Source of the DNA: Desulfomonile tiedjei
Lineage (GTDB): Bacteria; Desulfobacterota; Desulfomonilia; Desulfomonilales; Desulfomonilaceae
Reading direction: 5' to 3'
Assembly: GCA_016218715.1 (NCBI GenBank)
Contig: JACRDG010000114.1
Coordinates: 1-34,376 of the forward strand
Length of the DNA stretch: 34,376 nt
Shown here in pieces: positions 1,429 through 29,983 of this stretch (position 1 is the first letter of the stretch; each line of letters opens with the position of its first letter). Made by a program: the position numbers and the translations under genes. Below the pieces are notes generated by a model. That model did no database searches, was not told where the DNA came from, and worked only from the letters and a program-made list of their open reading frames with translations.

Positions 1429-4233
1429 ATGGATTACAAGGACACCCTGAATCTTCCCAAAACTTCGTTCCCCATGAGGGCGAACCTGCCCAAGAAAGAG
1501 CCCGAGATGCTCAAGGCGTGGGAAGCGGAGAAGATGTATCAGAAAATCCTGCAAGCAAGCCGGGGACGGGAAAAATACATCCTCCACGACGGCCCTCCGT
1601 ACGCGAACGGGAATATCCACCTCGGGACGGCCCTGAACAAAATACTCAAGGACATCATAGTTAAATCCAAGTTCATGGCCGGGTACGATTCCGATTACGT
1701 TCCGGGATGGGACTGCCACGGGCTCCCCATCGAGCATCAGGTGGACAAGGAACTGGGCGAGAAGAAGCTCCGCATGACCAGTCTTCAGGTGCGCCAGCGG
1801 TGTCGCAAGTACGCAGAGAAATTCATCGACATCCAGAGAGAAGAATTCAAGCGGCTCGGCGTATTCGGCGAATGGGAAGACCCGTACCTGACCATGAAGT
1901 ACTCCTATCAGGCCACCATCGTCAGGGAACAGGGGAAGTTCTTCTCCAGCGGTGCGGTCTATCGCGGCAAGAAACCGGTTTACTGGTGCGCTTCGTGCGT
2001 TACCGCGCTGGCTGAGGCTGAAGTCGAATACATGGACGCTGCCTCGCCGTCCATCTACGTCCGGTTTCCCGCTCGGGAAGACTTTTCCCGGCTAATCCCC
2101 GAAACCAAGGGCAAGCGCGTCTATGTGGTCATCTGGACCACCACCCCCTGGACGATTCCCGCCAACCTCGCCATCGCGGTCCACCCGGACGAGTCGTATG
2201 CAGCAGTGGAATCGGGCGACGATGTGTACATCCTGGCCGAGAGACTTGTCCCCATCAACATGGAACTCTTCGGCATCACCGACTATCGTATCGTAGCAAC
2301 CTTCCCCGGAACCGCCCTGGAAGGACTCGTCTGCTCGCATCCTATCTACGACAGGGCGTCGCAGCTCATCCTCGCGCCTTTCGTGACGCTCGACACCGGC
2401 ACCGGCTGCGTCCACATCGCTCCGGGGCACGGCCAGGAAGACTACGAGGTCGGCCTCAAATACAACATCGACGTGTACGCTCCTCTGGACGATCACGGCA
2501 GATTCACGGACGAAGTGGAGTTCTTCAAGGGAAAATTCGTCTTCGACGCGAATACGGACGTGATCGCCAAGTTGAAAGAGCTGGGCGCGTTGATGGCCTC
2601 CGAAAGGATGGAACACAGTTATCCGCATTGCTGGCGGTGCAAGCAGCCGGTGATCTTCCGCGCGACCCATCAGTGGTTCATTTCCATGGAAAAGACGGGG
2701 CTTCGCAAGAAGGCACTGGAAGCGATCGACACGGTGAGCTGGATTCCGAGATGGGGGAGAGACCGCATCTACGGCATGATCCAGCACCGGCCGGACTGGT
2801 GCATATCCCGCCAGCGGAGCTGGGGCGTTCCGATCGTCGCGCTGCGCTGCGCAGATTGCGGCGAAATCGTGGCCCCTCCGGAGCTGTTCGAACGGGTCGC
2901 TCAGCTCTTCGAGCAGCAGGGCGCGGACGCGTGGTTCGAGACCAAGTTGGAAGATTTACTCCCCAACGGGCCGGCCTGTCCTTCCTGCAACAGCTCTGCC
3001 TTGGTCAAGGAGACCGACATCCTGGACGTCTGGTTCGATTCCGGGGTGAGCTGGGCCGCGGTCTGTGAAGCACGCTCGAATCTCGGCTATCCGTGCCAGC
3101 TCTACCTCGAGGGGAGCGATCAACACCGCGGGTGGTTCCACAGCGCGTTGCTCACGTCGGTGGGCACGCGAGGCCGAGCCCCTTATGCGGCAGTGCTCAC
3201 CCACGGGTTCGTGGTGGACGGCCAGGGGAAGAAGATGTCCAAATCGCTGGGCAACGTGATCCAGCCCAGTGAAATCATCACGAAGTACGGCGCGGACATC
3301 TTGCGGCTTTGGGTATCCGCGGAAGATTATCGAGACGACATCCGGATTTCACCGGAGATACTCGAACGTCTGGCAGAAGCGTACCGACGCATCCGGAACA
3401 CGTGCCGGTTCCTCCTTGGAAATCTCTCCGATTTCGATCCGGCCGAGGCCATGGTCCCTGCAGATCAGCTCACCGAGCTTGACCGCTTCGCCCTGGACGG
3501 GCTGAACCGGATCATTCGCCGGGTCAGGGGGGCGTACGAGGAATTCGAGTTTCACGTAGCCTTTCACACGCTGTACAACTACTGTACAGTTGACCTCTCC
3601 GCTCTGTACCTCGATATCCTGAAAGACCGGCTCTACTGCGAGAAGACCGATGGTAGGCTCCGGCGATCTTCCCAGACGGTACTTTACCGGATTCTATCCG
3701 CTCTGGTGAGACTGATGGCTCCCCTCGTGCCGTTCACCGCGGAAGAGGTCTGGGCTCAGGTCCCACGCGGAGCCAATGAGCCCGCAAGCGTGCATTTGAG
3801 TGCATTCCCCGAGCCGATCGTCGAAGTGACCCTAAGCGACGCGGAGCGCGACCGATGGGAAACGCTGCTCGCCGTGCGCCAGGAGGCCTATCGGGCGCTG
3901 GAAGAGGCACGCGCGGGGAAACTCATCGGCTCTTCACTGGAAGCCAAGGTACTCATTGAAGGATCGGCTGAGGTCGTGCAGGCTGTCTCTGCCATGGAGG
4001 ACCCCGAGGCGTTCTTCATCGTGTCCCAGTTGGAGCTTCGGGCTTCGGAAATCCCGGCGGAACGGGCTGAAGACAAGGTAGCGGTCAGCGTGACCGTCTC
4101 CCGGAGTGAAGGAGCCAAGTGCCCTCGATGCTGGACATGGGATCCGGAAACCGGCACGGATAAGGACTATCCCGAAGTTTGCCCGCGGTGTGCCGGCGTG
4201 CTGAAGGAGTCCGGGATCACTCTGAAGGAGTAG
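1429..4233 (+). CDS. ileS: Isoleucyl-tRNA synthetase
   Basis: Class Ia synthetase that charges tRNA-Ile in the cytoplasm. At 934 residues it is close to the 938 of E. coli IleRS. Visible parts are the [16 protein letters not shown] region (HIGH-type motif at residues 64-67), the [13 protein letters not shown] block, the CP1 editing domain with [13 protein letters not shown], the KMSKS loop at 602-606, the anticodon-binding domain, and a C-terminal zinc finger with Cys898, Cys901, Cys918 and Cys921. The fourth residue of the HIGH motif is Thr, not His. The frame is open upstream to 1258, but ATG 1429 follows a GCGGAGGG site and gives the normal N-terminus. The zinc finger marks the bacterial, mupirocin-sensitive subtype. 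It is followed about 100 bp later by lspA. Confidence 0.97.
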
Positions 4234-4332
4234 CGCCGAACGGCTCTCAAACAGGGACCATCCCGCCCGTGCTTACCTCATCGCGTCCGCAGCGAGAGGA
4301 CGAACTACACCACGAGGTCGGTGCCCCACAAA

Positions 4333-4860
4333 ATGACCAGCATGCATCGCGGCAGAAGGATTCTCATATTTGGAATCATATCGGTACTGATCGTGGTCGC
4401 GGATCAGGTGACGAAGTACCTGATCGTGGCCTGGCTGCCGGTGAACAGCGGCCTGACCGTCATCCCCGGATTCCTCGATATCATCCACGTGCGAAATACA
4501 GGAGCCGCGTTCGGAATCGGTGCTGACAGCGCCTGGACCTTCCGAGGCGGGTTCTTCATTCTCATGTCGTTTGCGGTACTTGCGGTGATCGTTTGGATGC
4601 TGATTTCCGGGCCTGCTGTCGATACGTTGCTCGTGACCACGTACGCCCTTTTTTGTGGCGGAGCGGTGGGGAATCTCGTGGATCGGTTGCGGTTCGGCGC
4701 GGTGGTCGATTTTATCGACGTGCATTGGGGGGACCTTCACTGGCCCGCGTTCAACGTGGCCGACTCAGCGCTCTGTGTGGGGGTCGCGCTGTTCTTTGTG
4801 CACTTTCTCTTGGCAAAGGATACGGTAAGGGTTGATACCGTTTCACATGGAGAGAAGTAA
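4333..4860 (+). CDS. lspA: Lipoprotein signal peptidase (signal peptidase II)
   Basis: Inner-membrane aspartyl protease that cuts the signal peptide of prolipoproteins after lipid attachment. Counting from ATG 4333 (175 residues), there are four hydrophobic segments, ADQVTKYL near residue 23, the NTGAAFG motif at 55-61, and the two catalytic aspartates: Asp126 in VVDFID and Asp144 in FNVAD. The order ileS-lspA is a common bacterial arrangement. A GTG at 4321 and an ATG at 4342 are alternative starts; none has an ideal ribosome-binding site. Several lipoproteins in this window (29120-32610) would be substrates. Confidence 0.95.
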   Translation: MTSMHRGRRILIFGIISVLIVVADQVTKYLIVAWLPVNSGLTVIPGFLDIIHVRNTGAAFGIGADSAWTFRGGFFILMSFAVLAVIVWMLISGPAVDTLLVTTYALFCGGAVGNLVDRLRFGAVVDFIDVHWGDLHWPAFNVADSALCVGVALFFVHFLLAKDTVRVDTVSHGEK

Positions 4861-5080
4861 TCCGGGGAGCGCCTTTTTGACAATGAATTTTATCCTTAGC
4901 TCAGCTTCGCCCGGCATCGAAAATCTGGTTCAGGCCGTGTGCCTGGATCGTCGTAGGGGAGGCGTTTACCCCATCCTTGCTCTCATTGCAGTCTCGGAGC
5001 TGGCGGACGATAAGCCCTGCCCCTACTACGGTCTCCCTCTGTCAGGCGCGTGTCCCATTCCTAAGTACAGGTATTCATAA

Positions 5081-5220
5081 GTACGGTCGCAGATTCTCCG
5101 ACGTCACCCCGGCGAAGGCCGGGGTCCAGAAATCCTGGATTCCGGCCTTCGCCGGCGTGACGAACGAAGATTCCAGCAAGCAAGGCAAGCGGCACCGAAC
5201 TTACGAAAACGTGTACTAAG
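5081..5220. repeat. Composite repeat: tags around a family 1 palindrome (copy A)
   Basis: The inner palindrome at 5102-5162 pairs CGTCACCCCGGCGAAGGCC with the matching CCTTCGCCGGCGTGACG arm around a TCCAG...CTGGA core. The left tag at 5081-5095 (GTACGGTCGCAGATT) matches 10952-10966 at about 13 of 15 bases. The right tag at 5205-5220 (GAAAACGTGTACTAAG) matches 11077-11092 at 15 of 16. The palindrome core recurs at 10841-10911 and 17980-18060. The rest of 4861-5295 holds no gene that I can support; GGGGAGCGCCTTTTTGA just after lspA may be a remnant of the hairpin family seen at 11113. Confidence 0.8.
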
Positions 5221-5295
5221 CTCTCGTGGCCGAATCTTTGCCTTAATTTGTGCGGGTCCAAACGAAAGAACATCCGGATCTTCACTCCAAACTTC

Positions 5296-7515
5296 TCACA
5301 ACAACTTGTCGAGCGTTATCGGCAGGTCTCGGATGCGTTTGCCGGTGGCGTGGAAAACGGCATTGGCGATCGCCGCTGCAACGCCGACTATGCCGATCTC
5401 ACCCAGCCCTTTGGCACCGAGCGGGTTGACGGCCTCGTCTTGTTCTTGAACGAAGATCACCTCGATGTCATGCACGTCGGCGTTGACCGGGACGTGGTAG
5501 TCCGCCAGGTTGTGGGTCATGATCCGCCCGAAGGTGTGGTCGATCACGCTCTCCTCTTCCAACGCGGTGCCGATGCCCATGACGATCGCGCCGAGAACCT
5601 GACTCCGCGCCGTCTTCGGGTTCAGGATGCGCCCGGCCGCAACAGCGCCGACGACCCGCATAACGCGAATCGTGCCGAGGTCTTCATCGATCCGCACCTC
5701 CGTGAACACCGCCGAATGGGCGAAGCGCGAGTATTGCATCTGTTCCGGGGTGGGTCCGGCGGACGCTTTCTCTTCGATAGCGCTGAGCCCGCCATGCCGC
5801 ATCGCCTCGATGAGAGAAACGGCCCGAGACGAGTCGTTGTGCGATCGAATTTGTCCGTCGACAAACCTCACGTTGTCCAGCTTGGTGTTGGCGAGCGGCG
5901 AGCCATCGATCTTCCGCGCTAATTGGAATAGCTTTTTGCGTATTTTCTCACAGACGGCCTTGACCGCTGATCCGACCGTGGATGCCGTGAACGATCCGCC
6001 TTCCACAGGCGATTTCGAAAGGGACGAATCGCCGAGCTTGAACGTCACATCCTCGATCGGCAGCCCGAGCATCTCTGCGGCAATCTGGGTCATGATCGTG
6101 TACGTGCCGGTGCCGATATCCGCCGTTGCACTGCTGACCGTGAGCCTGCCGTCGGCAGTCAGCGTTGCTTTCGCGTCCGCCGTGATATGAAATGCCTCCC
6201 AGACGCCTCCCGCCATCCCCCAGCCGATCAGCACATTGCCCTCCCGCATTGACCGGGGCTGGGGGTTGCGTCTCGCCCAGCCGAACTTCTCCGCTCCGAG
6301 CCGGTAACAGGCGCGGAGTTCTTTGCTAGAGAACGGCTTGCCTTCGTTCTGGTCCCTTTCGGCGTAATTCTTCAGCCTCAGCTCGATCGGGTCGATGCCC
6401 ACCTTGAAGGCAAGCTCATCCATGGCGCATTCAAGCGCGTGCAAGCCCCACACAGCCCCAGGCGCACGCATATCGCCCGGCGTGTGCAGGTCGAGCTTCA
6501 CTACCGTATGGCTAAGCTCGACGTTGTCGCAACGGTAGAGCAGGCCCGACCAGTTGACGACGGTCTCGCTGTAGTCTTCGAACTGCGAGGTCTCAGCTAT
6601 CGCCTTGTGAGTGATAGCCTCGAGCGTGCCGTCGGGCGCGGCTCCCAGAGCGACGCGCTGCCAGATAGCGGGACGGTGCGTGAAGGTGAACATCTGCTGA
6701 CGCATGAGCGAAACTCGGACCGAGCGCTTCAACTCCCGCGCGGCCAAGACGGCCAAGAATACCTGATACACGGGGCGCAGCCCCGCACCAAATGCCCCGC
6801 CGACGAACGGCGAGAGAACGCGCAGGTCTCCCTTTGAGTAACCGAACACGTTACAAAGGTAGTTTTGAACGTTCTGCACCCCTTGGGTTTTATCGTACAC
6901 GAGGAGCCTGCCATTCTCCTCCCGAAGTACGGTCGTTGCAAACGGCTCCATCGGGTTGTGATGCTCAATTGGCGCACTATACTCCTCTTCCAGGCGCACA
7001 ATGGCCTCGGCAAAGGCCTTCTCCGCGTTGCCGCGCGACTCCGGCGGCGGAATGAATTCCCTGGGTCTCGGTTGATAAGCCCTTTCCCGCTCCTCATTCA
7101 GATTCGTGGCATGCGCGTCGCGCTCGTACCCGATCCGAACGAGTGACGCCGCGTAATGTGCGAGTTCAAAGGTGTCAGCGACGACCAGAGCGACAGGTTG
7201 GGCGCTGTACCTGATCTCGCCGTCGTGCAGCGGGCGAAAAGGGGATCCGGGAGGTGCGACCTCGTCGCTATAGCTGTTGTCGGACTGTGCGAGCAGCGGG
7301 CTGTTTTCATGGGTGAATACTTGCAACACGCCCGGCAGTCGGAGCGCCTCGGCGACGTCGATCCGGGTGATCCTCCCTTTCGCAATGGCGCTGGAAACGA
7401 CAACACCGTAGACAAGACCGGGGACGTTGTACTCGGCTGCGTACTTCGCTGCGCCGGTCACCTTGGCACGTCCATCAACGCGGCTGATCGGCTTTCCGAT
7501 GTGCTCGGTCCTCAT
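5296..7515 (-). CDS. paoC: Molybdenum hydroxylase large subunit, PaoC-type aldehyde oxidoreductase
   Basis: Molybdopterin-binding catalytic subunit of a xanthine dehydrogenase-family enzyme. Members oxidise aldehydes or N-heterocycles, passing electrons to FeS and FAD subunits. Its 739 residues are close to the 732 of E. coli PaoC. It starts with the usual GKPISRVDGRAKVTGAAKYAAE, has a Gly-rich GGAFGAGLRP Mo-cofactor segment and EGGSFTAST, and ends with GAKGLGEIG, where Glu706 is the expected catalytic base. ATG 7515 follows AAGGAGG and overlaps the end of the FAD-subunit gene by four bases. Similarity runs along the whole length to PaoC rather than to CO dehydrogenase CoxL, whose active-site Cys loop is not seen. 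Substrate is unknown; aromatic aldehydes are a guess by homology. Confidence 0.93.
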   Translation of the reverse strand: MRTEHIGKPISRVDGRAKVTGAAKYAAEYNVPGLVYGVVVSSAIAKGRITRIDVAEALRLPGVLQVFTHENSPLLAQSDNSYSDEVAPPGSPFRPLHDGEIRYSAQPVALVVADTFELAHYAASLVRIGYERDAHATNLNEERERAYQPRPREFIPPPESRGNAEKAFAEAIVRLEEEYSAPIEHHNPMEPFATTVLREENGRLLVYDKTQGVQNVQNYLCNVFGYSKGDLRVLSPFVGGAFGAGLRPVYQVFLAVLAARELKRSVRVSLMRQQMFTFTHRPAIWQRVALGAAPDGTLEAITHKAIAETSQFEDYSETVVNWSGLLYRCDNVELSHTVVKLDLHTPGDMRAPGAVWGLHALECAMDELAFKVGIDPIELRLKNYAERDQNEGKPFSSKELRACYRLGAEKFGWARRNPQPRSMREGNVLIGWGMAGGVWEAFHITADAKATLTADGRLTVSSATADIGTGTYTIMTQIAAEMLGLPIEDVTFKLGDSSLSKSPVEGGSFTASTVGSAVKAVCEKIRKKLFQLARKIDGSPLANTKLDNVRFVDGQIRSHNDSSRAVSLIEAMRHGGLSAIEEKASAGPTPEQMQYSRFAHSAVFTEVRIDEDLGTIRVMRVVGAVAAGRILNPKTARSQVLGAIVMGIGTALEEESVIDHTFGRIMTHNLADYHVPVNADVHDIEVIFVQEQDEAVNPLGAKGLGEIGIVGVAAAIANAVFHATGKRIRDLPITLDKLL

Positions 7516-8507
7516 GAGTGTGCCTCCTTGAAAGACGCCTGGCTCAGGGCGCGCACAATGGCGAGCTTCGCCAGCTCGATCTTGAACCTGTTGCGGCCGA
7601 AACCCTTGGCGTCGCGAAGCAGCGCTTCGGCGACTCGCTTGAAGTTCTCCCGGGTGGCGCTCTGACCGTGCAGCATTGTCTCGGTCTGGGGGTCACGCCA
7701 CGGCTTGTGCGCCACACCACCCAGCGCGAGCCTGGCTTCCGTAATCGTGTTGCCGTCCATTTCCAGCGCGGCGGCCACCGAAACCAGAGCGAAGGCGTAT
7801 GACGCGCGGTCACGAATCTTCAGATACGCGTGGTGTTCTGCAAAACCTCTTGCGGGCAGATCGACACCCGTGATGATCTCGTCGGCTTGCAGGTTTGTGT
7901 CGATATTCGGCGTGTCGCCGGGAAGGCGGTGAAACGCGGCGAAGGGGACGACGCGCTCTCCCACTGACCCGGTAACCCGGACGACCGCCTCCAGTGCAGC
8001 CAGCGCGACGCACATGTCGGATGGGTGCGAGGCAATACAGGCCGCGCTCGTCCCCAGGATAGCGTGAGCGCGGTTGAACCCCGCGATGGCGGAGCAGCCC
8101 ACCCCGGGCGTGCGCTTGTTGCAGGGCGTAGCAGTGTCGTAGAAGTAGCAGCAGCGCGTCCTCTGCAGCAGGTTGCCTCCTACCGTCGCCATGTTGCGGA
8201 GCTGTGGCGATGCGCCGGCCAGGATAGCCTTCGACAGCAACGGATAGCGCCGCTCGATCTCTTTATGGTAGGCGACATCTGTGTTCGTCGCGAGCGCACC
8301 GAGCCGCAATCCGCCGTCTGATCTTGGGCGAATTCCCCCCAGGGTAAGGCGAGTGATGTCGATGAGCCGGCTCGGACGCTCTACGTTCTCCTTCATCAGG
8401 TCGATCAAATTCGTGCCGCCTGCAATGAACTTGGCCGCTCCGTCCGCGGCGACCTCACGCAAGGCGGTTGCCACGTCGTCGGCTCGGGTGTAGCTAAAAC
8501 TGTTCAT
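7512..8507 (-). CDS. paoB: Molybdenum hydroxylase FAD subunit, PaoB-type
   Basis: FAD-binding medium subunit of 331 residues (E. coli PaoB has 318). The FAD signatures are AKFIAGGTNLIDLMK near residue 30 and ATVGGNLLQRTRC near 108-119. Beyond the usual fold it carries the extra cysteines typical of PaoB: Cys120, Cys129 and Cys138 at equal spacing, plus Cys157, which in PaoB hold an additional [4Fe-4S] cluster. This places the operon in the PaoABC subgroup rather than with generic xanthine dehydrogenases. The frame runs upstream to 8579, but ATG 8507 gives the family start and a four-base overlap with the iron-sulfur subunit gene. The gene is translationally coupled on both sides. Confidence 0.93.
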   Translation of the reverse strand: MNSFSYTRADDVATALREVAADGAAKFIAGGTNLIDLMKENVERPSRLIDITRLTLGGIRPRSDGGLRLGALATNTDVAYHKEIERRYPLLSKAILAGASPQLRNMATVGGNLLQRTRCCYFYDTATPCNKRTPGVGCSAIAGFNRAHAILGTSAACIASHPSDMCVALAALEAVVRVTGSVGERVVPFAAFHRLPGDTPNIDTNLQADEIITGVDLPARGFAEHHAYLKIRDRASYAFALVSVAAALEMDGNTITEARLALGGVAHKPWRDPQTETMLHGQSATRENFKRVAEALLRDAKGFGRNRFKIELAKLAIVRALSQASFKEAHS

Positions 8508-9040
8508 TCTTCGTCCCCCCGTTCCCCCATCCGACTCACTTGTTCGATTGCGGCGACGATATTGGCGTAAGCCCCGCATCGGCAGATGTTCCCACTCATC
8601 AGTTCGCGGATGTCTTCGGGCGATTTTGCTTTGCCTTCACGGAGCAACCCTACGGCAGAACAGATCTGGCCTGGAGTGCAGTACCCACATTGGAAGGCGT
8701 CGTGCTCGACGAAAGCCTTCTGCAAGGGGTGGAGCACTTCTCCCTCTGCAAGGCCTTCGATCGTCGTCACCTCTGCGCCGTCGTGCATGATCGCCAGGGT
8801 CAGGCAGGAGGTGATTCGCTTGCCGTTCACGAGGACCGTGCAGGCCCCACATTGGCCGTGATCGCACCCCTTCTTCGTCCCGGTCAGACCAAGGTGTTCG
8901 CGCAGGGCGTCGAGCAGTGTTGTCCAGGGAGCGATCTCTATCTGTTTTACTGCTCCATTGACCTTGAGGGTAATTCCATTTTTCGTGGGCAACGAAACTG
9001 TCGCCTTCGTGGCGGCGTCAGCCTTTGGCTTGCTGTTCAT
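8504..9040 (-). CDS. paoA: Molybdenum hydroxylase [2Fe-2S] subunit, PaoA-type, without a Tat signal
   Basis: Small subunit with two [2Fe-2S] clusters, 178 residues. Cys59, Cys64, Cys67 and Cys79 form the plant-ferredoxin-type site (GCDHGQCGACTVL), and Cys118, Cys121, Cys153 and Cys155 form the second (QCGYCTPGQ ... NICRCGAYANI). E. coli PaoA begins with a twin-arginine signal that exports the complex to the periplasm. Here the N-terminus is a short Lys/Ala-rich stretch with no RR motif and no hydrophobic core, so a cytoplasmic enzyme is inferred. ATG 9040 sits five bases after AAGGAG; the GTG at 9046 overlaps that site and is unlikely. First gene of the three-gene operon. No PaoD/XdhC-type chaperone gene is in the window. 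Confidence 0.93.
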   Translation of the reverse strand: MNSKPKADAATKATVSLPTKNGITLKVNGAVKQIEIAPWTTLLDALREHLGLTGTKKGCDHGQCGACTVLVNGKRITSCLTLAIMHDGAEVTTIEGLAEGEVLHPLQKAFVEHDAFQCGYCTPGQICSAVGLLREGKAKSPEDIRELMSGNICRCGAYANIVAAIEQVSRMGERGDEE

Positions 9041-9799
9041 ACTCACTCCTTATCCGCCCTGTTAAATGTACACCGGAATTAAGCGCCGGTCTTGTCATTG
9101 TGGAGCGTCTTGGTGCTGGTGGGGGTGGGGGAGGCAACTTTGACGCCGAGTAGGCCCCTGCTTGGGCCCGCACAACGCAGGAGGACTGCAAGATCGTCGT
9201 CATGTTGATGAAAAAGCCTAATTCTTCCTCTTCTTGAGCGTACCGCACCGTAGGCCCCTCAGTCAACCAAAACTCAGGAGACCTCACCCGAACACGCCTC
9301 AATGGTTTCGGGGCAAGTCAAAGGCTGAATCCACATGAACTTGTCACTTCCGACCGTAACCTGACACCCTCGCTCCCACCTTGATCAGACGCTCGACAAG
9401 TTATTCCATTTATTATCCTGTACCAAATCAACTAATAGTCTGAAAACACATGCATTTCTTTAGTTCCTCGCCTAATAATCCGGGTACAATTCTCCGATCT
9501 GCAGTTTAGGCTGGCATCTGCAATCCGAATCCCCCGTGGATGGTCGATGACATTCTCGTTTGCTGGATTAAGTCAACAATCCGTTTGAGAAAAGGTTTCC
9601 CGCCAGGTTCCTATCCACAAACCTCTAGTTTCTTGGGAGGGCTAAGACTCTTCGACGGGGGGCCACCTGTTCCTGTCACACTGGCGAGCCTTCGAGCAAC
9701 GACCCCGGTCGCGCGGAACGAAGTATTCGCCCTGTGTGGAGCAGCTTGTTCGCCCACAGAAGCTCCCCCAAAATTTTCTCATTGGAATGCAGCGGGAAT
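9041..9799. other. Gene-free stretch between prmA and the pao operon
   Basis: About 760 bases lie between the 3' end of prmA and the start of the pao operon. The reading frames here are short, Pro-rich or without ribosome-binding sites, and none resembles a known protein. The base composition turns AT-richer around 9390-9500, and a regulator site or promoter for paoABC would be expected close to 9041-9150, but I could not fix one by eye. No repeat of the families listed elsewhere was seen. Confidence 0.6.
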
Positions 9800-10696
9800 T
9801 CAGGATCTCTTGTGGAACATACCACAGCCCCACTCGGCGCGGGTGATCTCCCGGACGAGGATCAGCCCCTGAGCGAGAAAGGCTTCTCTGACCTCCTCCC
9901 ACTGCTCGATGGTGATCCCCGAAACGATGAGGAAGCGTCGGAACAAAGAAACCAGTCGATCCCGGTTTGCCAGGAGCGTCAGGCGGTCGAGGTTGGCGGT
10001 GACGATGTCCGCGGGCTTGGCCAGAGCGGCCAGTTCGACGCATGCCAGGTGAACGCGATCTTCCACGCCATTGAGGGCCGCGTTATGGAGAGCAGCTTGC
10101 ACAGCCACGGGATCGTTGTCCACCCCGGTTACGTCGGTCGCGCCGAGCTTGACCGCGGCGATGGCGATGATCCCCGTGCCGCATCCCACATCCAGGAGGC
10201 TCACACCTTCTGACAGGCTACCAAGCCGCTCCATGGCCTCTTCGAGCAGAATCAAACACCCCTGCGTGGTCTCGTGGGTCCCGGTGCCGAACGCGTCCGC
10301 GGGTTCGATGACGAGGATCTGTCTCCCGTACGGTTCCGGCTTGAGCCAGGGAGGGGTCACGATCAGCCGTTTGCCCACGGGGAAGCTGGTGAAATAGCTC
10401 TTCCAGACGGTGGACCACTCCTCTTCCTTGAACGGAGTAACGCGAACCACCGGAACATCCGAAACGGAAAAGAGATCGCACAGCCTGGCCAGGTAATTCT
10501 TTAGCTCCGCGTAGACCGCTTCCCACGCGTCGCGAGGAAAATACGCGATAACCGAGGGGTGCTCGGGGTTCTCATCGTCAAGAACGACGCCCCTGGAGCC
10601 GCGTTCATGCAAGAAATTCGCGACCCCGTCCATCATGACGGGAGGAACGCCGACGTGCAGGGCGATCCATTCTTCCGAATGCGCAGAGCTGTTCAT
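9800..10696 (-). CDS. prmA: Ribosomal protein L11 methyltransferase
   Basis: SAM-dependent enzyme that trimethylates residues of ribosomal protein L11. Its 298 residues match the usual length of about 295. The N-terminal half is the L11-recognition domain. The methyltransferase half begins with the PrmA hallmark EPADAFGTGTHETTQ near residues 131-145, then the SAM-binding LLDVGCGTGIIAIAA near 167-181 and the acidic GVDNDPVAV. The NPP-type catalytic segment is replaced by TANLDRL, as in other PrmA proteins with a TANL pattern. The frame is open upstream into the repeat at 10841, so ATG 10696 is preferred although its ribosome-binding site is weak. It stands alone. Confidence 0.93.
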   Translation of the reverse strand: MNSSAHSEEWIALHVGVPPVMMDGVANFLHERGSRGVVLDDENPEHPSVIAYFPRDAWEAVYAELKNYLARLCDLFSVSDVPVVRVTPFKEEEWSTVWKSYFTSFPVGKRLIVTPPWLKPEPYGRQILVIEPADAFGTGTHETTQGCLILLEEAMERLGSLSEGVSLLDVGCGTGIIAIAAVKLGATDVTGVDNDPVAVQAALHNAALNGVEDRVHLACVELAALAKPADIVTANLDRLTLLANRDRLVSLFRRFLIVSGITIEQWEEVREAFLAQGLILVREITRAEWGCGMFHKRS

Positions 10697-18157: not shown

Positions 18158-19021
18158 TCACATCCTCTTGAAATCGACGCGGAGTGCCGTATTGTTGACG
18201 TACCGCTGAAGCGTGAATCCTGTCTCGACCTGTTCCAGCGTCACAGAGAGCCCTACCTTCTGCATCTCCTTGAGAATCAGCTCCGCAGAGTGCCGGAAGT
18301 TCATCCGCTCGATCACTTGGTGCATGGTCAACGCGGAAGCGTTTCCCGGCGGAGGCACGCAGATTTCTTCATCAGTCGGAATGTAGTGGACGTGGAGATG
18401 AACGGAATAGTCTCCCACGATGCAGGAAATATTCACTTCCGGCCTGGCGGAAGGGTCCGCGAGACGTCCCTGCCCTTGATAGCGCTGAAAGATCGCCTCG
18501 GTCTCGTCCTGCTTGCTCAAGTAGAGTGTGGAAGAGAGATCGTACACGTCCAGGGGCCGGTTCTCTGCCTGCTCGATGAACGAGGTTCCACGAGGCCGCT
18601 CAGGGCTGCCCCCAGGGGGGTCGTTCCTGTGAATGATGAGGTCAATGATCGTGTCACCCAAGGAACAGGAGAGTGAGATCGGATTTTCGCCCGTATCGAT
18701 CCCTTGCTGGCGGATCTTCTCCATGATCAATGCGTGGTCGTGGAGCGCCATGATCCTCTGAACGACCTGCTGCATGAAGAAAGGATTGGTGTTGAACTTC
18801 TCTGTCAGGATGATCCGCTGCATCCTTTGGATGTGAGTCTCGACGAAATAGGGATCAGCAGACACGTACATGCTGATGCTCTCAGTGGCCGACTCGGCAG
18901 GGAGATAACGCCGCCAGATTTCCTGGCGATTGTATTCCTTCATTAGCCCGAGCACTTCAAGCAGGTCAAAGCCGTCGATCTCCCGATTTTCGCTTAGCCC
19001 GATCGGGGAGGGTAGGTTCAT
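18158..19021 (-). CDS. Unrecognised protein with an internal tandem duplication
   Basis: The 287-residue soluble product has no signal peptide or membrane segment, and I do not recognise the family. It is built from two diverged copies of one unit, about residues 15-131 and 157-287. DL-x3-L-x-L-x-K at 19-28 recurs at 161-170, IWRRY at 35-39 recurs as IFQRY at 177-181 (both offset 142), and the helix MQQVVQRI...H...LIMEKIRQQGI at 83-108 recurs as MHQVIERM...H...LILKEMQKVGL at 233-258 (offset 150, no gaps). Two strands share SC-x2-GD-x4-L-x2-H (Cys119 and Cys200). ATG 19021 has AAGGA nine bases upstream. It lies 200 bp after the phosphatase gene on the same strand. Confidence 0.8.
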   Translation of the reverse strand: MNLPSPIGLSENREIDGFDLLEVLGLMKEYNRQEIWRRYLPAESATESISMYVSADPYFVETHIQRMQRIILTEKFNTNPFFMQQVVQRIMALHDHALIMEKIRQQGIDTGENPISLSCSLGDTIIDLIIHRNDPPGGSPERPRGTSFIEQAENRPLDVYDLSSTLYLSKQDETEAIFQRYQGQGRLADPSARPEVNISCIVGDYSVHLHVHYIPTDEEICVPPPGNASALTMHQVIERMNFRHSAELILKEMQKVGLSVTLEQVETGFTLQRYVNNTALRVDFKRM

Positions 19022-19084
19022 AGGTTTCGATCCTTGCGTTGCTTTCTTGACCTCACAGCGGAATCAGGCGCCAAGACATGACAA

Positions 19085-19103
19085 AGGCAGGCTGAGCCTG
19101 CCT
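19085..19103 (-). terminator. Possible terminator after the SpoIIE-type phosphatase gene
   Basis: AGGCAGGCT and AGCCTGCCT form a perfect nine-base inverted repeat around one base; a realistic hairpin has a seven-base stem and a CTCAG loop on the minus strand. A short TTTGT follows. It lies in the 200-base gap between the phosphatase gene and the unrecognised gene, and may separate or attenuate their transcripts. Confidence 0.35.
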
Positions 19104-19221
19104 GAAGTCCAGTCGCCACGTGCCGGCGCGCGGTTCCGATTGATAACTCCTGCGCCAACTCCCACATCTTACAGCGAAACACGCTCGCCGCGCAAGTTCG
19201 GCACACGGGATCTCGAGAAAC

Positions 19222-20379
19222 TCAATGAATTTCCAGTCGTACCTCTTTCCCTTTCGATCGCAAGAGGTTCGCGATGGCCTGCACGCTACGGCTCTTGAAT
19301 CCCATTTCCTGCGGCAGGTTGGGGTTCAGGTGAGCCGGGTTGATCGCCTGACCGAGGTAGATGTCTATGCTGTCCGCATACAGGAACTCCCACGCCAGCT
19401 TGCTTGCGCCGTCCCGTTTGCCGACCAGTTCGTCCACATCCTGAACGCTCTGGAGGATTTCCAGCGTCGCATTTACCGTGTGAACCCCTTCGGTCACGAG
19501 TTCAAGCCCATCCAGTTTGCCGATCGGAGGAATCTTCTCGGTCATCGACGACAGGTCCACTACCACGTCTTGTCCGAGGATTTTCGCAACGATCCCCGCG
19601 GTGGTGCCCCCGCTCAGGATCCTGCGACCCGGGGCTTCCAGAAACTTTTTCACCACCGCTCCGTCGTCGTCGCGCTTGACGGGCGGACCGATCATAAAGG
19701 ACCCGAAACGCTTGGGACGTACCTTGAGCACCCCGACCGTGGTGTCATCGCCGGGCTTGTCCTGGTAGAGATCATTGGCCTGGTCGACCAGGATCTGGGC
19801 AACTTTCTGTGCGGACGCGTCTTCATGAATCTGGGTCTCCAGAAACTTGGCGATCTTGTCCCAGTCCCATCCGAGGTTGAGCAGTCCGCCGATTCCTGCG
19901 TGGATTTCGCCGTCGCTCACGGTTACGAGCCAGTCCCCCGCATTCGCATGGACATGGGCTTCGCGGATCTTGCGGCTGCCGATGACCCGGTCCTTGTATT
20001 GCAGCTGGCTCTTGTAACCCTGTTTCATAAAAAAAGTCGGCGGGTTGTCGAACTCCGCGAGGTAAACCCGGCCGTCATCCAGCACCTTCAAGAGGGTAAA
20101 CGTACTGTATGCGATCTTCCGCACCTTGCACTCCGGCAAGGTATCGGTCAGGGTGGCAACCACCTCTTCCAGGGGCAGCCCCCGTTCCATGAGCCGCAGC
20201 GCGATCTTGGTGGTGAGGGTTGCGAGGATGTTCGCCTTGACTCCGCTGCCAAGCCCGTCGGAGAGGACCATGAGCTTGCCTCCGCTGATGCCCGCGACGG
20301 AGAGCGAGTCTCCGCACAGGATCTCTCCGTACTTGCAGACGTGAGCACCTCCAGATTCGATGAACAGCGGCTCGCTCAT
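19222..20379 (-). CDS. SpoIIE-family PP2C-type serine/threonine phosphatase
   Basis: The product is 385 residues. Residues 15-220 are a PPM/SpoIIE phosphatase domain with metal-binding acids in the expected places: Asp24 (CGDSLSVAG), Asp41 (LSDGLGSG), Asp156 (SDGEI) and Asp211-Asp212 (GDDTTVGV). Residues 230-385 form a second domain with GRRILSGGTTAGIVAKILG, which I recall from phosphatases encoded beside [FeFe]-hydrogenases in clostridia; that link is from memory. The start overlaps the end of the sensor gene by four bases and has GAGGGAG before it, so sensor and phosphatase are coupled. A role in reversing phosphorylation on a partner or anti-sigma antagonist is inferred. No kinase partner is in the window. 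Confidence 0.88.
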   Translation of the reverse strand: MSEPLFIESGGAHVCKYGEILCGDSLSVAGISGGKLMVLSDGLGSGVKANILATLTTKIALRLMERGLPLEEVVATLTDTLPECKVRKIAYSTFTLLKVLDDGRVYLAEFDNPPTFFMKQGYKSQLQYKDRVIGSRKIREAHVHANAGDWLVTVSDGEIHAGIGGLLNLGWDWDKIAKFLETQIHEDASAQKVAQILVDQANDLYQDKPGDDTTVGVLKVRPKRFGSFMIGPPVKRDDDGAVVKKFLEAPGRRILSGGTTAGIVAKILGQDVVVDLSSMTEKIPPIGKLDGLELVTEGVHTVNATLEILQSVQDVDELVGKRDGASKLAWEFLYADSIDIYLGQAINPAHLNPNLPQEMGFKSRSVQAIANLLRSKGKEVRLEIH

Positions 20380-22682
20380 CGCACTGCTCCCTCACGGGCG
20401 AGCTTGATCAACTCGAAAAGGGCTGCTTTGGTTTCAGCCGTCGTCTCTCCCAGCAGACCTGCGATCTCCTGGGCTACGCGCATCTGCTGGTGAATGACCT
20501 GCTGGGCCTTGGAAATGGTCTCCGCTTTGAAAACGTCAGCTTGCTGGTCTTTGATGACGGTCTCGGTGATATCCAGGAGCATGAGAACTCTCAGATCCTC
20601 TTCGGGTATCTTGAAGTTGTAGAGTTTGGCTGTCCTGCCGACCTTCTCAAGCTGTAGCCATCGCGACCCGGCAGCTTCCTCTTGCCCTTTGAATTGCAGG
20701 AGGGGATCTTGGCCGAAGAGTTCTTCGAAGGTCTTCCCCCTGACCTGGTCCGGTTCCTGCCCGCTGTGAGCTGCCAGTTCCAGGAAGGCCCGGTTGTGGT
20801 AAACCACCCGATGCTCCTTGTCGGCAAGAGCTATGGCCACCGGGAGCCGCTGGAAAATGGTTTCGGCCCGTTGTTCCGCGTGTTGACGCCGTGTCTGTTC
20901 CAGCATCTGCCTTGTCTGCAGGGCGGTGTAGACCATAAGGAGAATCTGGTGCGGGCCGAAGGGCTTGGGGATATAATCGTACGCGCCCATCTTTACCGTT
21001 TCTATGGCGGCTTCCGTGGATTTGAACGGTGCGGTCATGATGACCTGCACTTCAGGCTGGCGGTATTTGATCTCCTTGAGAAGTTCTTTTCCGCCCATGT
21101 CGGGCATGTCGATGTCCGCGACCACCACGTCCCAGAATTCCTTCTCCAACTCCTTGAGAGCCTCCTGGACCGACGTGGTTACCTTGACGCCGAAGCCTTC
21201 GCTCACCAGAATACGCTCGCAGACGTCGAGGACCTTCTCGTCGCTGTCCAGGACGAGCACACGGCTGGTGGAACTGATCTCCTCCGATCCGGAGACTCGA
21301 AGCATCGGATCTGAAATGTGCGCCATAAGGTGCGCCATGCCGTCTGCCATCTTCTCCAGAGAGGCCAACTTCTTGACGCGAGCTACCTGCTCCCGTGCCT
21401 GGTCCAGCTCGCCAACCTGCTCGGCCACCTTGGTGGCGAGCTGCTTGCCCCATTCTTCAAGTTTGCGCTGTGATTCTGCAAGGTTGCGAATCATGAGGTT
21501 GAACGTGGCTGCAAGTTCTCCTATCTCGTCCCGAGCGAACACCGGCACCGCGTGACTGAGGTCCCCTTCCGCGGCGCGCTTTGCCGCGTGGAGCATTTGT
21601 TCCAGCGGACGGTTGATCCATTTGACCAGGAAATAGGAAATGGCCCCCATGAGGAGAGCCCCGAAAAGGGCTACCACCATGAAGGTGGCCACGAGTGTGT
21701 CCGCAACTGAACTGATCGGCCGCTCAAGCGTCGCCACCTGGATCGCGCCCACGATGTTCTTATCAAGGTCGAAGAGGGGTTCGGTAGCAGCCAGGTAGGT
21801 CGATCCTTGAAGATCTTCCCAGGTCATGCCCACTTCCCCTTGTGTCAGGACCTTGGTACCCACCGTTCCCGAAGCGGCAAGACCGGCGAGCGGAAGACCG
21901 TCACTCCCGCGCAAGGTCGTCGAAATGCAGTTGGAGCCCTGGAAAACCGTCACCTCACCGATCGGTTTATTGCCGTAGGTCTCGCCCCTGAAGACCTCCC
22001 GTGAAATCCGGTTCACGACGTAATCATTATTGTTGAGGAGGATCCCGCCATACAGGACGCCCAAGACTTTGCCGCCGCTCATGATCGGCTGGGCAGCCTC
22101 CATGACCATGCCGTCGGTGGTTTTGTCCCCCAGCCTTTTGCCGAGCGCGGGGTTTTCTCGGGCCAGACGTGCTGCAGGCAAGATTCGCAGGCCGGCAGCG
22201 CCCTTACCCTCCAACGCTCTTTTGATAAGGGGCCCGGTGGAGACGTCAACAGGTTTGCTCTCCGCAACATAGGCCTGGGCTACCACCTGGCCCTTTTCGT
22301 TGATCATGGAAAGAAAATCCATATCGTTCTCCGCGGCAACCATTGCCAGGCGGTTCCGTATTTCCTCTGCATTCCCTCGTGCCAGAGCCTCAGCGACTCT
22401 CTCCGAGCCGGCCCAGAGTCGTATCTTGAGTTGCAGGTTCTCGAGGGAGTTCTTTAGGATGAAACTCGCGGTGGAAAGATTCCCCTGAAGCTCTCTGCGT
22501 GCACGATCCATGATGGTTTCCCGAGCAAGTCGGGTACCGATGAAGCTCGTGAAAATGCCCACGAGCACTACGACGCCGAGGAATCCTCCCAGGACTTTTT
22601 GTTTGAGGGAAAAATCCTGTGCCCAGCTCGTGAAGGCGCTCCAACTCTTCCATGGAAGGGGCCTGGGTGCGGGTCGGTCCAT
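20376..22682 (-). CDS. Membrane sensor protein: Cache, HAMP, HisKA-like helix, receiver and PAS
   Basis: The product is 768 residues. TM1 is at about 30-50, an extracytoplasmic double-Cache-like domain at 51-328, TM2 at about 330-353, HAMP at 354-406 and a coiled coil at 407-455. A HisKA-like segment follows (SLEKMADGMAHLMAHISDPM, His451), but no HATPase domain comes after it. A receiver domain spans 474-590 with Asp523, Thr550 and Lys573, then PAS at about 605-712. The tail at 725-760 (QMRVAQEIAGLLGETTAETK) resembles, from memory, the C-terminus of PAS-linked [FeFe]-hydrogenases. ATG 22682 has GAAGGTGG upstream. It is coupled to the phosphatase gene. It probably senses a ligand outside the cell and a redox or small-molecule state inside. 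Confidence 0.87.
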   Translation of the reverse strand: MDRPAPRPLPWKSWSAFTSWAQDFSLKQKVLGGFLGVVVLVGIFTSFIGTRLARETIMDRARRELQGNLSTASFILKNSLENLQLKIRLWAGSERVAEALARGNAEEIRNRLAMVAAENDMDFLSMINEKGQVVAQAYVAESKPVDVSTGPLIKRALEGKGAAGLRILPAARLARENPALGKRLGDKTTDGMVMEAAQPIMSGGKVLGVLYGGILLNNNDYVVNRISREVFRGETYGNKPIGEVTVFQGSNCISTTLRGSDGLPLAGLAASGTVGTKVLTQGEVGMTWEDLQGSTYLAATEPLFDLDKNIVGAIQVATLERPISSVADTLVATFMVVALFGALLMGAISYFLVKWINRPLEQMLHAAKRAAEGDLSHAVPVFARDEIGELAATFNLMIRNLAESQRKLEEWGKQLATKVAEQVGELDQAREQVARVKKLASLEKMADGMAHLMAHISDPMLRVSGSEEISSTSRVLVLDSDEKVLDVCERILVSEGFGVKVTTSVQEALKELEKEFWDVVVADIDMPDMGGKELLKEIKYRQPEVQVIMTAPFKSTEAAIETVKMGAYDYIPKPFGPHQILLMVYTALQTRQMLEQTRRQHAEQRAETIFQRLPVAIALADKEHRVVYHNRAFLELAAHSGQEPDQVRGKTFEELFGQDPLLQFKGQEEAAGSRWLQLEKVGRTAKLYNFKIPEEDLRVLMLLDITETVIKDQQADVFKAETISKAQQVIHQQMRVAQEIAGLLGETTAETKAALFELIKLAREGAVR

Positions 22683-22696
22683 GATATGTCCACCTT

Positions 22697-22945
22697 CTAT
22701 GCCTGCTTCTTCAGTATCTCCGTTTCGAAGATCTCGCGGGCATCGTCAATCGAATTGGCATGGAAGAGCCGGTCGTCAATGAGAAGGTTGGCTCCGTGGG
22801 TACACTCGTCCATGCAAAAACAGCCTTTCAGTTCTACCTGCGCATCAAGGTTCGCCTCTTTAATTGCGTCCTTGAAATACCCAATGATCTGGTGGGAGCC
22901 CTTGAGATGGCATGCGCTTCCCACGCAGACGGTGATAACTCGCAT
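22697..22945 (-). CDS. Thioredoxin-fold [2Fe-2S] ferredoxin-like protein
   Basis: The product is 82 residues, of the family related to the C-terminal domain of NuoE/HydC subunits. Cys7 and Cys12 (CVGSAC) and Cys44 and Cys48 (CMDEC) give the C-x4-C and C-x3-C pattern of a thioredoxin-like [2Fe-2S] cluster; Cys42 is extra. ATG 22945 follows AAAGGAGT; the longer frame to 22981 would add 12 residues unlike the family. It is the first gene of the signalling cassette, with only 14 bases before the sensor gene. In hydrogenase clusters such proteins pass electrons to or from the H-cluster subunit. Here no such subunit is adjacent. Confidence 0.88.
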   Translation of the reverse strand: MRVITVCVGSACHLKGSHQIIGYFKDAIKEANLDAQVELKGCFCMDECTHGANLLIDDRLFHANSIDDAREIFETEILKKQA

Positions 22946-28125: not shown

Positions 28126-28998
28126 TTACAGGGCCCGCAAGAACTCGGGCCTCAGGCGTGCTTGATCCCGAGAACGGAGCACCGAGTCGATCGCGGCCAG
28201 AATCGCCTCCTTGTCACGCGGCAAGGTCGCCTTGACCGGCAAGTAGTTGGACGCGTGATTGGACCGGAAAACACAATGGGTGAATGAGGATTCTCCGATC
28301 ATGATCCGCAACTCGTTGATGAGGCCGAATGGGTCCGGCAGCCGGAACCGGCCTTCAGCGAAGTCTTTGTGGAGCGGTGTTCCGGGAACCAGGATCAAGC
28401 TCAACGCGCCCACGTAGTCGGGGTCCATGTCCGTCAGGATCCTTGCAGTCTCCCGGGCATGCCGCTCGCTCCCTTCGATTCCGCCTATCCCGAGGAGCAC
28501 GGTCACGGAGAGGGCTATTCCCGCCTCCTTCACTCTCCGGGCAGCTTCCACCATTTGCTCGTACGTAGCGCCCTTGCAGATCTTTTCGAGTAGCTGGCCG
28601 TCGCCGGTCTCGAGGCCGAGGTAGATGATGCCGAGCCTCAGGGCATGGAGTTCCTGGAGATCCTGCACAGATTTCTTCAAAATGTTCTTGGCGTTGGAGT
28701 AAATGCCGATCCGCTGAACCGAAGGGATATACCGGTTTACTTCCGAGAGTATTTCCTTGAGCCGGCGCTGTGGAATACACAAGGCATCGCCATCGGCAAG
28801 GAAAACTCGCTCCACCGGCCCCATCTGGCGGGCGTCTTCCAAATCCTCTCTGATCTCTTCGATACTTCGGATGGCGAAAGATTTGTCTCGATAGCTGCCG
28901 CAAAAGGTACACCTGTTGTGATTGCAACCGATGGTCGCCTGAATTATCAGGCTATAAGCCTCGCTCGGTGGACGATATATGGCACCGACGTATTTCAC
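28126..28998 (-). CDS. Radical SAM protein
   Basis: The product is 290 residues. The cluster motif is IGCNHNRCTFCGSY: Cys25, Cys30 and Cys33, that is C-x4-C-x2-C rather than the standard C-x3-C-x2-C, a variant I recall from a subgroup of anaerobe proteins. The rest fits an Elp3/MiaB-like TIM barrel: VFLADGDALCIP, then GIYLGLETGDGQLLEKICKG-type and SVTVLLGIGG segments. No second cluster domain or B12-binding domain is present. Such proteins are often annotated only as radical SAM; the substrate is unknown. The start is GTG 28998 with AAGGGGA upstream. It is monocistronic as far as can be seen. Confidence 0.87.
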   Translation of the reverse strand: MKYVGAIYRPPSEAYSLIIQATIGCNHNRCTFCGSYRDKSFAIRSIEEIREDLEDARQMGPVERVFLADGDALCIPQRRLKEILSEVNRYIPSVQRIGIYSNAKNILKKSVQDLQELHALRLGIIYLGLETGDGQLLEKICKGATYEQMVEAARRVKEAGIALSVTVLLGIGGIEGSERHARETARILTDMDPDYVGALSLILVPGTPLHKDFAEGRFRLPDPFGLINELRIMIGESSFTHCVFRSNHASNYLPVKATLPRDKEAILAAIDSVLRSRDQARLRPEFLRAL

Positions 28999-29119: not shown

Positions 29120-29734
29120 TTATTGATAGTCGATTCCTTCTCGCACGAATTTCTCAAATTCCTTCTGAGCATCCTTTATGGCGTCACCGTCAGCCCTTAG
29201 CAAAATATAATATACACTCGAGTTCCCTTCCACAAGGTACAGGACCTTCTGAGTGGGAATCACGGGACTGAACATGGCCTGAATAGGCTTCGCGGTGTGT
29301 GGATCGCGTATAACCGCCAGTTTCCAACCTTTTGCGATCTCTGCAGGTGTAAGCTTTCTGGAATCGTCGCAGCGTATTCTCTTGCGGATGTACTTCGATC
29401 GGAACGTGACCTTGTACGCGTTCTTCCCGCCAATCTTGACGTATTCTTCCGTATCGCCAGGTCTGATCACCTCTCCGTCGGGGAAGAGCGTGACGTAATG
29501 TACTGCAAGGTTGTCGACCGGCCGGTCGATCTTTGCCTTCCGCACTTCGATGGCCACGTCGTCTTCCGGGTTACCGAACCGGCTTGCCGTATCGTCTTGT
29601 TCGATCAAAGGATACGGATTGCGGACAATCTCCCGCAGGGAGTGAGTACTGAAACAGCCCGTGAGAATCCCCGGCAGCAGCAAACAGAGGATTGCCTCGA
29701 AACTCACACGCATCCTTGGCCAGTGCTCAAACAT
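29120..29734 (-). CDS. Predicted lipoprotein of unknown function
   Basis: The product is 204 residues. A lipobox LTGC puts the lipidated Cys at residue 27, after a hydrophobic stretch (FEAILCLLLPGI). The mature part has a conserved-looking, charged beta-rich domain (VEEDVAIEVRK-like strands, KNAYKVTFRSKYIRKRIR, then VLYLVEGNSSVYYILLRADGD) with a helical tail. I do not recognise the family. ATG 29734 is chosen because GGAAG lies just upstream; ATG 29713 would also give a lipobox. The reading frame continues upstream to 29812 without a signal sequence. Envelope location is inferred, with processing by LspA from the gene at 4333. Confidence 0.7.
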   Translation of the reverse strand: MFEHWPRMRVSFEAILCLLLPGILTGCFSTHSLREIVRNPYPLIEQDDTASRFGNPEDDVAIEVRKAKIDRPVDNLAVHYVTLFPDGEVIRPGDTEEYVKIGGKNAYKVTFRSKYIRKRIRCDDSRKLTPAEIAKGWKLAVIRDPHTAKPIQAMFSPVIPTQKVLYLVEGNSSVYYILLRADGDAIKDAQKEFEKFVREGIDYQ

Positions 29735-29983
29735 CAGCTTCCAGCTTTTCGTGGTTCTTGGAGAGGAGCGGCAGGAGAATCGGTCGGGTCGATCCTCGCG
29801 AGATCGGCCCACTCTGAAACGCCGGTCCCATCACCAGAAATCGGGTGAGTAACCGTACACCGGAATAGGTCCAACCGGCCGGAATCACGATGAGGGAGGC
29901 TTGGAGGGGGAGATGCGTCTCCTCCTCTATCCTCACCGGGTGCCGAGCCACTTCAAGCCCGGTGAACGATTACTCGGGTGAGC

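Follow-up and report, generated by a model that had tools for sequence, protein, structure and literature searches.

A three-gene signalling cassette of Desulfomonilaceae shares its predicted output half with phosphatase-linked [FeFe]-hydrogenase sensors

This study deals with a cluster of three genes, hereafter the trio, in a stretch of 34,376 nucleotides from Desulfomonile tiedjei (Desulfobacterota, Desulfomonilaceae; GenBank assembly GCA_016218715.1, contig JACRDG010000114.1), which is referred to, at its full length, as the window. On the minus strand, between positions 19222 and 22945, a gene for a [2Fe-2S] protein is followed by the gene for a membrane receptor and then by the gene for a phosphatase, with a gap of 14 bases after the first and an overlap of 4 bases (ATGA) between the second and the third (Table 1). 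A preceding sequence-only reading of the window had described three coupled genes with this gap and this overlap, and both were confirmed by the open reading frames (ORFs) and by the Pfam matches, which are 2Fe-2S_thioredx in the [2Fe-2S] protein, sCache_3_3, HAMP, Response_reg and PAS in the receptor, and SpoIIE in the phosphatase. That reading extended the cassette over positions 18158-22945, of which the part occupied by the trio stands, whereas the fourth gene (18158-19021), which was found beside the trio in just 5 of the 18 Desulfomonilaceae genomes (G017, one of the others, has little downstream sequence), is not part of the core.

Table 1. Position of the trio, its domains and its neighbours in the window (aa, amino acids; TM, transmembrane segment)
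Feature	Positions	Strand	Basis or remark
[2Fe-2S] thioredoxin-fold protein, 82 aa	22697..22945	-	ORF and Pfam PF01257
Chimeric membrane receptor, 768 aa: TM-Cache periplasmic-TM-HAMP-linker-receiver-PAS-conserved tail	20376..22682	-	ORF and Pfam
SpoIIE-type (PPM/PP2C) phosphatase, 385 aa, with second C-terminal domain	19222..20379	-	ORF, Pfam and model
Receptor, Cache periplasmic region, residues 61-325 (bounds set by us)	21708..22502	-	Pfam, alignment
Receptor, HAMP, residues 351-402	21477..21632	-	PF00672, E 1e-15
Receptor, receiver with atypical acidic pocket, residues 475-584	20931..21260	-	PF00072, E 2.7e-23
Receptor, PAS, residues 605-700 (bounds set by us)	20583..20870	-	Pfam
Receptor, shared C-terminal tail, residues 701-760 (bounds set by us), contains QMRVAQEIAGLLGETTAETK	20403..20582	-	
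Phosphatase, PP2C catalytic domain, residues 1-223; D24, D41, D156, D211, D212	19711..20379	-	Alignments, structure matches
Phosphatase, second domain, residues 225-385	19225..19707	-	Alignments, model
Internally duplicated protein	18158..19021	-	Downstream neighbour, not core
CoA-enzyme activase-type protein, 1441 aa	23539..27864	-	Neighbour, not obligatory
Radical SAM protein, 290 aa, C-x4-C-x2-C motif	28126..28998	-	Upstream neighbour of trio
230-aa protein, conserved beside radical SAM gene	29120..29812	-	

Orthologues of the phosphatase, with 76-84% identity, were found in all 18 Desulfomonilaceae genomes, that of the window included, and the full trio in 15 of them, counting G001, whose phosphatase gene lies in two pieces on separate contigs; in the remaining genomes (G012, G014 and G016) a contig ends inside or beside the trio. 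The [2Fe-2S] gene is adjacent to the receptor gene in 15 of the 15 genomes that are readable there, and the ATGA overlap is not a chance feature, because it is kept at all 15 loci measured (the window is included in both counts).

The Cache region of the receptor is flanked by hydrophobic 19-residue windows, with starts at residues 26-35 and 322-338, and its first half also gives a dCache_3 match that lies below the Pfam cut-off. Neither HisKA nor HATPase was matched in the window's receptor by Pfam at E <= 0.01, and the same holds for the [FeFe]-hydrogenase domain PF02906. Within Desulfomonilaceae, the mean identity to the window's receptor is highest for the tail (0.91) and HAMP (0.87) and lowest for the Cache region (0.48). 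The C-terminal part, which carries QMRVAQEIAGLLGETTAETK, belongs to a PAS-tail unit, of which one copy was found across the genome of the window (E <= 0.01). The phosphorylatable site of a two-component receiver consists of two acids, an Asp, a Thr or Ser and a Lys; with the positions assigned by visual comparison with the receiver consensus, the Lys is kept in 15 and the acceptor Asp in 13 of 15 Desulfomonilaceae sequences, and the second acidic position is non-acidic in all 15. Each of these 15 receptors contains 1-4 Cys residues. The linker KKLASLEKMADGMAH..HISDP (receptor residues 436-459, window 21306-21377) resembles, on visual inspection only, a degenerate H-box of a histidine kinase that lacks HATPase; Pfam gave no match to it at E <= 0.01. 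A scan of viral contigs with the receptor as query led nowhere.

The phosphatase was modelled with a mean pLDDT of 88.6 as a PP2C fold, for which the best structure match is 3pu9_A (Z 24.7, rmsd 2.7, 217 aligned), with SpoIIE 5ucg_A close to it (Z 24.0, rmsd 2.9, 215 aligned), and the five metal-site aspartates of PP2C phosphatases are invariant in both phosphatase alignments. The ORF and the model open at the PP2C domain itself, and the strand with which the model begins at once (residues 5-14) leaves the phosphatase without its own N-terminal linker helix. No fold was obtained for the second domain from whole-protein searches, which barely test this domain, and it was not searched alone. The [2Fe-2S] protein (PF01257, E 1.1e-7) carries the cluster motif CVGSAC...FCMDxC, which is intact in 13 of the 13 Desulfomonilaceae sequences recovered, and its best solved-structure match is a part of the bifurcating Fe-hydrogenase subunit alpha (7p5h_A, E 2.6e-11).

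Outside Desulfomonilaceae, relatives of the phosphatase align end to end over both domains with 34-49% identity. Records of Ruminococcus albus and Monoglobus show the same gene order, with a middle slot annotated as [FeFe]-hydrogenase-PAS-type and with a further 4Fe-4S protein downstream, which aligns with the hydrogenase core. When 395 genomes of the window's phylum, a draw from a larger group, were surveyed for the phosphatase at E <= 1e-30, it was found in 20, comprising 5 Desulfomonilaceae and 15 others, and all of the latter carry a hydrogenase-PAS match directly upstream. In the same class, 3 of 24 genomes outside Desulfomonilaceae have the phosphatase, all three in the fused hydrogenase form. 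We compared in total 98 loci from outside Desulfomonilaceae (3 plasmid-collection records, 17 of the same phylum and 78 from a scan of named genomes), which are the nearest relatives of the phosphatase and not a random sample, the named-genome scan having been taken as the best 80 of at least 574 confirmed; one more genome of the same class, G419, is also fused and is not counted among them. In 86 of the 98 loci the protein in the middle slot joins the core of an [FeFe]-hydrogenase to PAS and to a tail related to that of the trio, where fusion is defined by a tblastn match of more than 450 bases to the hydrogenase core and not by H-cluster residues, and where L117, L119 and L126 yield no clean single ORF. 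The tail is matched in all 86, its core being alike in 70; another 15, most of them distant loci from the same phylum as the window, have a diverged core, and one gave no ORF; from Bacillota to Planctomycetota it stays close to QMRVAQEIA(G/S)LLGETTAETK. The [2Fe-2S] gene lies upstream in 79 of the 84 fused loci with enough sequence. In nine loci a tail occurs with no core fused to it (five have sufficient sequence and four lie at contig ends), and 3 are without the tail, 2 of them at contig ends. The third is an orphan two-domain phosphatase of Acetoanaerobium noterae (L002:8001-9176) with neither tail protein nor [2Fe-2S] gene, and its upstream neighbours look by eye like CoA transferase subunits.

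Judged from these alignments, the predicted output half of the trio is that of the phosphatase-linked hydrogen sensor known as HydDB group C3 (HfsB/HydS), in good agreement, across several phyla, with the sequence-only reading, which had placed phosphatases with this second domain and proteins with a similar tail beside PAS-linked [FeFe]-hydrogenases. PAS, HAMP, receiver and SpoIIE domains are each widespread alone, and one might ascribe the resemblance to chance or to generic domains; we rejected this explanation as scarcely credible, since the tail, the second phosphatase domain, the [2Fe-2S] partner and the gene order all agree together, and since the window's genome holds a single match to the 385-aa phosphatase at E <= 0.001 despite six other SpoIIE-domain matches.

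In the available text of PMC5037454, group C3 bears the label 'Phosphatase-linked (putative)', and the HfsB/HfsC system (PMC11837493, PMC5707799, as far as available) corresponds to it. According to the available part of PMC5707799, deletion of hfsA and/or hfsB in Thermoanaerobacterium saccharolyticum leads to a higher ethanol yield and to raised adhE expression, and no such rise in ethanol follows when hfsC and/or hfsD or the entire operon is deleted; this pattern fits a signal that starts at the hydrogenase-PAS protein and is passed on by the remaining hfs products. How sensory [FeFe]-hydrogenases relay their signal is described, in the accessible portions of the literature, as unclear, assumed or proposed. 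Among the papers listed by a literature search, none describes, in its title or the opening of its abstract, a hydrogenase-free variant such as the trio.

The sequence-only reading had stated that the window encodes no H-cluster protein, and the absence extends further: PF02906 was not matched anywhere in the genome of the window, an assembly of 5.55 Mb in 124 contigs (99.99% complete, 3.71% contamination), with Thermotoga maritima as a positive control, and the possibility that a hydrogenase had been missed elsewhere in this genome was rejected on this ground. With the same control, PF02906 was not found in 17 of the 18 Desulfomonilaceae genomes, the window's included, ten of these 17 being less than 90% complete or more than 5% contaminated; among the 8 genomes of better quality, one gave a match. 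This sole positive genome, G005, carries the match (L025/L026, about 5.96 Mb) about 5.4 Mb from its cassette as counted along the contig, and the surrounding 16 kb gave no match to the [2Fe-2S] protein, the PAS-tail or the phosphatase. Neither finding that the sequence-only reading had named as refuting it was obtained: the neighbourhood survey revealed no hydrogenase gene near the cassette in the Desulfomonilaceae relatives, and the similarity to hydrogenase-linked proteins elsewhere is clear. Genes of the [NiFe]-hydrogenase type (PF00374) are present in all 18 genomes, and some of these matches may be complex-I-like relatives.

A second form without a hydrogenase was found beside CO dehydrogenase. 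In L096 (Spirochaetota, 2747-10309) CO dehydrogenase (TIGR01702, 674 bits; cut-off 478) comes first, followed in order by a 4Fe-4S ferredoxin-like protein, the [2Fe-2S] protein, a PAS-tail protein of 171 aa, the phosphatase, a NuoE-like protein, a NuoF-like protein and a Fer2 protein. In L102 and L104 (Planctomycetota; phosphatase at 6001-7140) a related ferredoxin-like gene lies upstream and a CO dehydrogenase, again above the TIGR01702 cut-off, lies downstream. PF02906 had no match in the genomes of L096, L102 and L104, three assemblies whose completeness is not given; the related Planctomycetota genome of L089 has three matches. The phosphatase unit can therefore stand without a hydrogenase link beside another redox enzyme, and from this context, together with the lack of PF02906 matches, Desulfomonilaceae seem not to be alone in having lost the link to hydrogenase. 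The form linked to CO dehydrogenase shares with the trio the [2Fe-2S] gene, the PAS-tail, the same phosphatase and the absence of a fused hydrogenase, and differs from it in that the PAS-tail is a separate protein of 169-171 aa accompanied by ferredoxin-like, NuoE/NuoF-like and CO dehydrogenase genes, with no membrane receptor. A literature search for its combined features found no paper.

Trees were built from chosen rows of the phosphatase (68) and of the PAS-tail (54), both unrooted. Desulfomonilaceae form one clade in each (100/100). In the phosphatase tree this clade stands weakly beside loci of Delongbacteria and Cloacimonadota (88/61), inside a branch (98/93) outside which lie two groups of fused loci of the same phylum. 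In the PAS-tail tree it stands beside the same Cloacimonadota locus (97/97), which encodes a separate PAS-tail protein of 170 aa, with NuoE/NuoF-like and [FeFe]-hydrogenase genes behind it. Neither of the two fused loci of the same class in the tree is sister to the Desulfomonilaceae clade, and the cassette is therefore probably not directly descended from them. On such a tree the original unit could also be a hydrogenase-free redox module of [2Fe-2S] protein, PAS-tail and phosphatase, to which the hydrogenase was added in one large branch, the Desulfomonilaceae and the CO-dehydrogenase-linked forms having kept or re-acquired other inputs. The lack of a root leaves room for this order of events, as do the five untruncated loci with non-fused PAS-tail proteins, three of which are those beside CO dehydrogenase in genomes without PF02906 matches. 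We nevertheless regard it as quite unlikely, since both of the deepest-drawn groups of the midpoint-rooted phosphatase tree are of the fused form, since L080, the sister of the CO-dehydrogenase group (100/99), is fused as well, and since the fused form occurs in Bacillota, Bacteroidota, Calditrichota, Planctomycetota and the window's own phylum, whereas loci with a separate PAS-tail are few.

We consider it probable, on balance, that the trio is a hydrogenase-free descendant of a phosphatase-linked sensory [FeFe]-hydrogenase cassette, with a receptor front end swapped in and with the tail acting in trans. The sequence-only reading had likewise proposed that the cassette moved away from hydrogenase, and the placing of Desulfomonilaceae among hydrogenase-linked rows in the unrooted trees speaks for it. 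The simplest history would lead from a fused ancestor through a separate PAS-tail protein to the fusion of this protein with a Cache-HAMP-receiver front end. Several points weigh against the proposal. The direction of the swap follows from parsimony only, because the trees are unrooted, and Desulfomonilaceae sit on a long branch, with a length of 1.89 in the tree of the PAS-tail. No [2Fe-2S] gene was found upstream at the Cloacimonadota locus; the nearest PAS-tail relative being non-fused and without this gene, a non-fused step is likely and the history of the [2Fe-2S] gene would be less simple. The acidic pocket of the receiver is incomplete, so that phosphorylation is doubtful and this domain may work without it. 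In addition, the contact between tail and phosphatase, the ligand of the receptor and the target of the phosphatase are all putative.

In the mechanism that we propose, the hydrogenase core of an ancestral cassette, ordered [2Fe-2S]-HydA-PAS-tail-SpoIIE phosphatase, would have been replaced in the Desulfomonilaceae ancestor by the Cache-HAMP-receiver front end, the PAS, the tail, the [2Fe-2S] partner and the two-domain phosphatase being kept through the swap. A periplasmic ligand at the Cache region, and perhaps a partner or a phosphoryl group at the receiver, would change the conformation of HAMP, receiver and PAS. The tail, as a helix supplied in trans, would then take the place of the linker helix of SpoIIE/RsbU-type phosphatases, so that the PP2C domain is dimerised and activated; for RsbU, the available text of PMC12143880 describes a flexible linker whose folding into a coiled coil brings about dimerisation and activation of the phosphatase, and the authors of that work suggest that sensor domains can be exchanged. 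The [2Fe-2S] protein would serve as redox input, reporting the cytoplasmic redox state to the complex of receptor and phosphatase, and the phosphatase would dephosphorylate a Ser/Thr-phosphoprotein that controls transcription or metabolism.

A receptor with only 1-4 Cys residues, in which the Cache region shows the fastest divergence, as might be seen in sensors of specific ligands, could instead answer a periplasmic ligand only, redox sensing being lost and the [2Fe-2S] protein a passenger or in another role. Decay would be expected of a passenger, however, and the constant adjacency of its gene to the receptor gene (15/15) together with the intact cluster motif (13/13 recovered) makes this explanation somewhat unlikely. 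A wider view, which we advance tentatively as a fair possibility short of a probable one, is that a portable redox output unit, made up of the [2Fe-2S] protein, the PAS-tail and the two-domain phosphatase, takes different inputs, the tail providing the linker helix of the phosphatase in trans. The inputs would be a fused [FeFe]-hydrogenase for H2, a complex of CO dehydrogenase and NuoEF-like proteins for CO or NADH redox, and, in Desulfomonilaceae, the Cache receptor, which would join a signal from outside with the redox state inside.

Upstream of the trio lies the CoA-enzyme activase-type gene, from which the sequence-only reading had suggested a link to CoA-dehydratase electron flow. Of the 15 informative Desulfomonilaceae genomes, 7 have the activase on the same strand, placed between the trio and the radical SAM gene, including that of the window and G010, whose contig starts inside the activase. 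In another 7 the radical SAM gene is directly upstream of the trio and the activase is not there, and in G007 neither gene was found within the 1.4 kb available upstream. The distance between activase and trio is 593 bases in the window and 222-724 bases, by match borders, across the 7 genomes that have it. An activase scan at E <= 1e-100 gave no match in G009 and only distant homologues (28-30% identity) in G002, G004, G007 and G013, several of these assemblies being incomplete. With an activase that adjoins the trio in just 7 of 15 informative genomes, the proposed link is not supported, and sensing of this electron flow by the cassette is very improbable. Activase homologues at G008:C257:24359-28678 and G007:C235:11306-14794 each contain one in-frame TGA, which may reflect codon recoding, a fault in the assembly or a broken gene. 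The radical SAM gene is upstream of the trio in 13 of the 14 Desulfomonilaceae genomes that could be judged, and together with the 230-aa protein it may belong to the same pathway as the trio. On the other side, the halves of the internally duplicated protein share 28 of 107 aligned columns as identical; no protein family was assigned to it, and its model (mean pLDDT 63), which gave no Foldseek match at E <= 0.001, suggests at this low confidence four helix-helix-strand-strand units. Further away, window 5296-8579 on the minus strand encodes the molybdopterin-binding and FAD-binding subunits of a molybdenum hydroxylase of the xanthine-dehydrogenase type.

As far as the genomes are readable, the trio is conserved across Desulfomonilaceae and is, by its predicted domains, a known sensor cassette in which another input device has taken the place of the usual one. 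The whole family thereby gains a conserved signalling system where domain annotation alone would list three unrelated genes. Such a natural version minus the hydrogenase shows that the parts are separable, and it suggests that the output parts make up an exchangeable module in which the tail is the output element; in addition, the signalling step becomes testable in soluble proteins for which H-cluster maturation is not required.

Among known systems, hybrid sensor kinases (Cache-HAMP-HisKA-HATPase-REC) share with the receptor the order of Cache, HAMP and receiver and differ in their two kinase domains, to which the receptor gave no match. The four cluster cysteines of NuoE-like [2Fe-2S] thioredoxin-fold proteins are present in the window's [2Fe-2S] protein. 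RsbU, RsbP and SpoIIE have in common with the trio's phosphatase the PP2C fold and the invariant metal-site aspartates; they carry sensor and linker on their own chain, whereas in the trio a partner protein bears the sensor, the PAS and the tail, and the phosphatase is extended by an additional domain at its C-terminus. In the available text of PMC13104023, group C/D hydrogenases have a C-terminal [4Fe-4S] cluster before PAS, which is absent from the 15 Desulfomonilaceae receptors with their few Cys residues. A PAS followed by a tail of the QMRVAQEIA-LLGETTAETK type occurs in both the window's receptor and the hydrogenase loci, and is not part of HydDB's definition of group C3. The closest system is this group, represented by HydS of Ruminococcus albus and HfsB/HfsC of Thermoanaerobacterium, which agrees with the trio in the [2Fe-2S] gene, in PAS and tail, in their order and in an overlapping or adjacent two-domain SpoIIE Ser/Thr phosphatase. 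The trio departs from it in being without the H-cluster core, the iron-sulphur motif of the middle protein and the downstream hydrogenase, and in having instead a membrane-anchored middle protein with Cache, HAMP and receiver.

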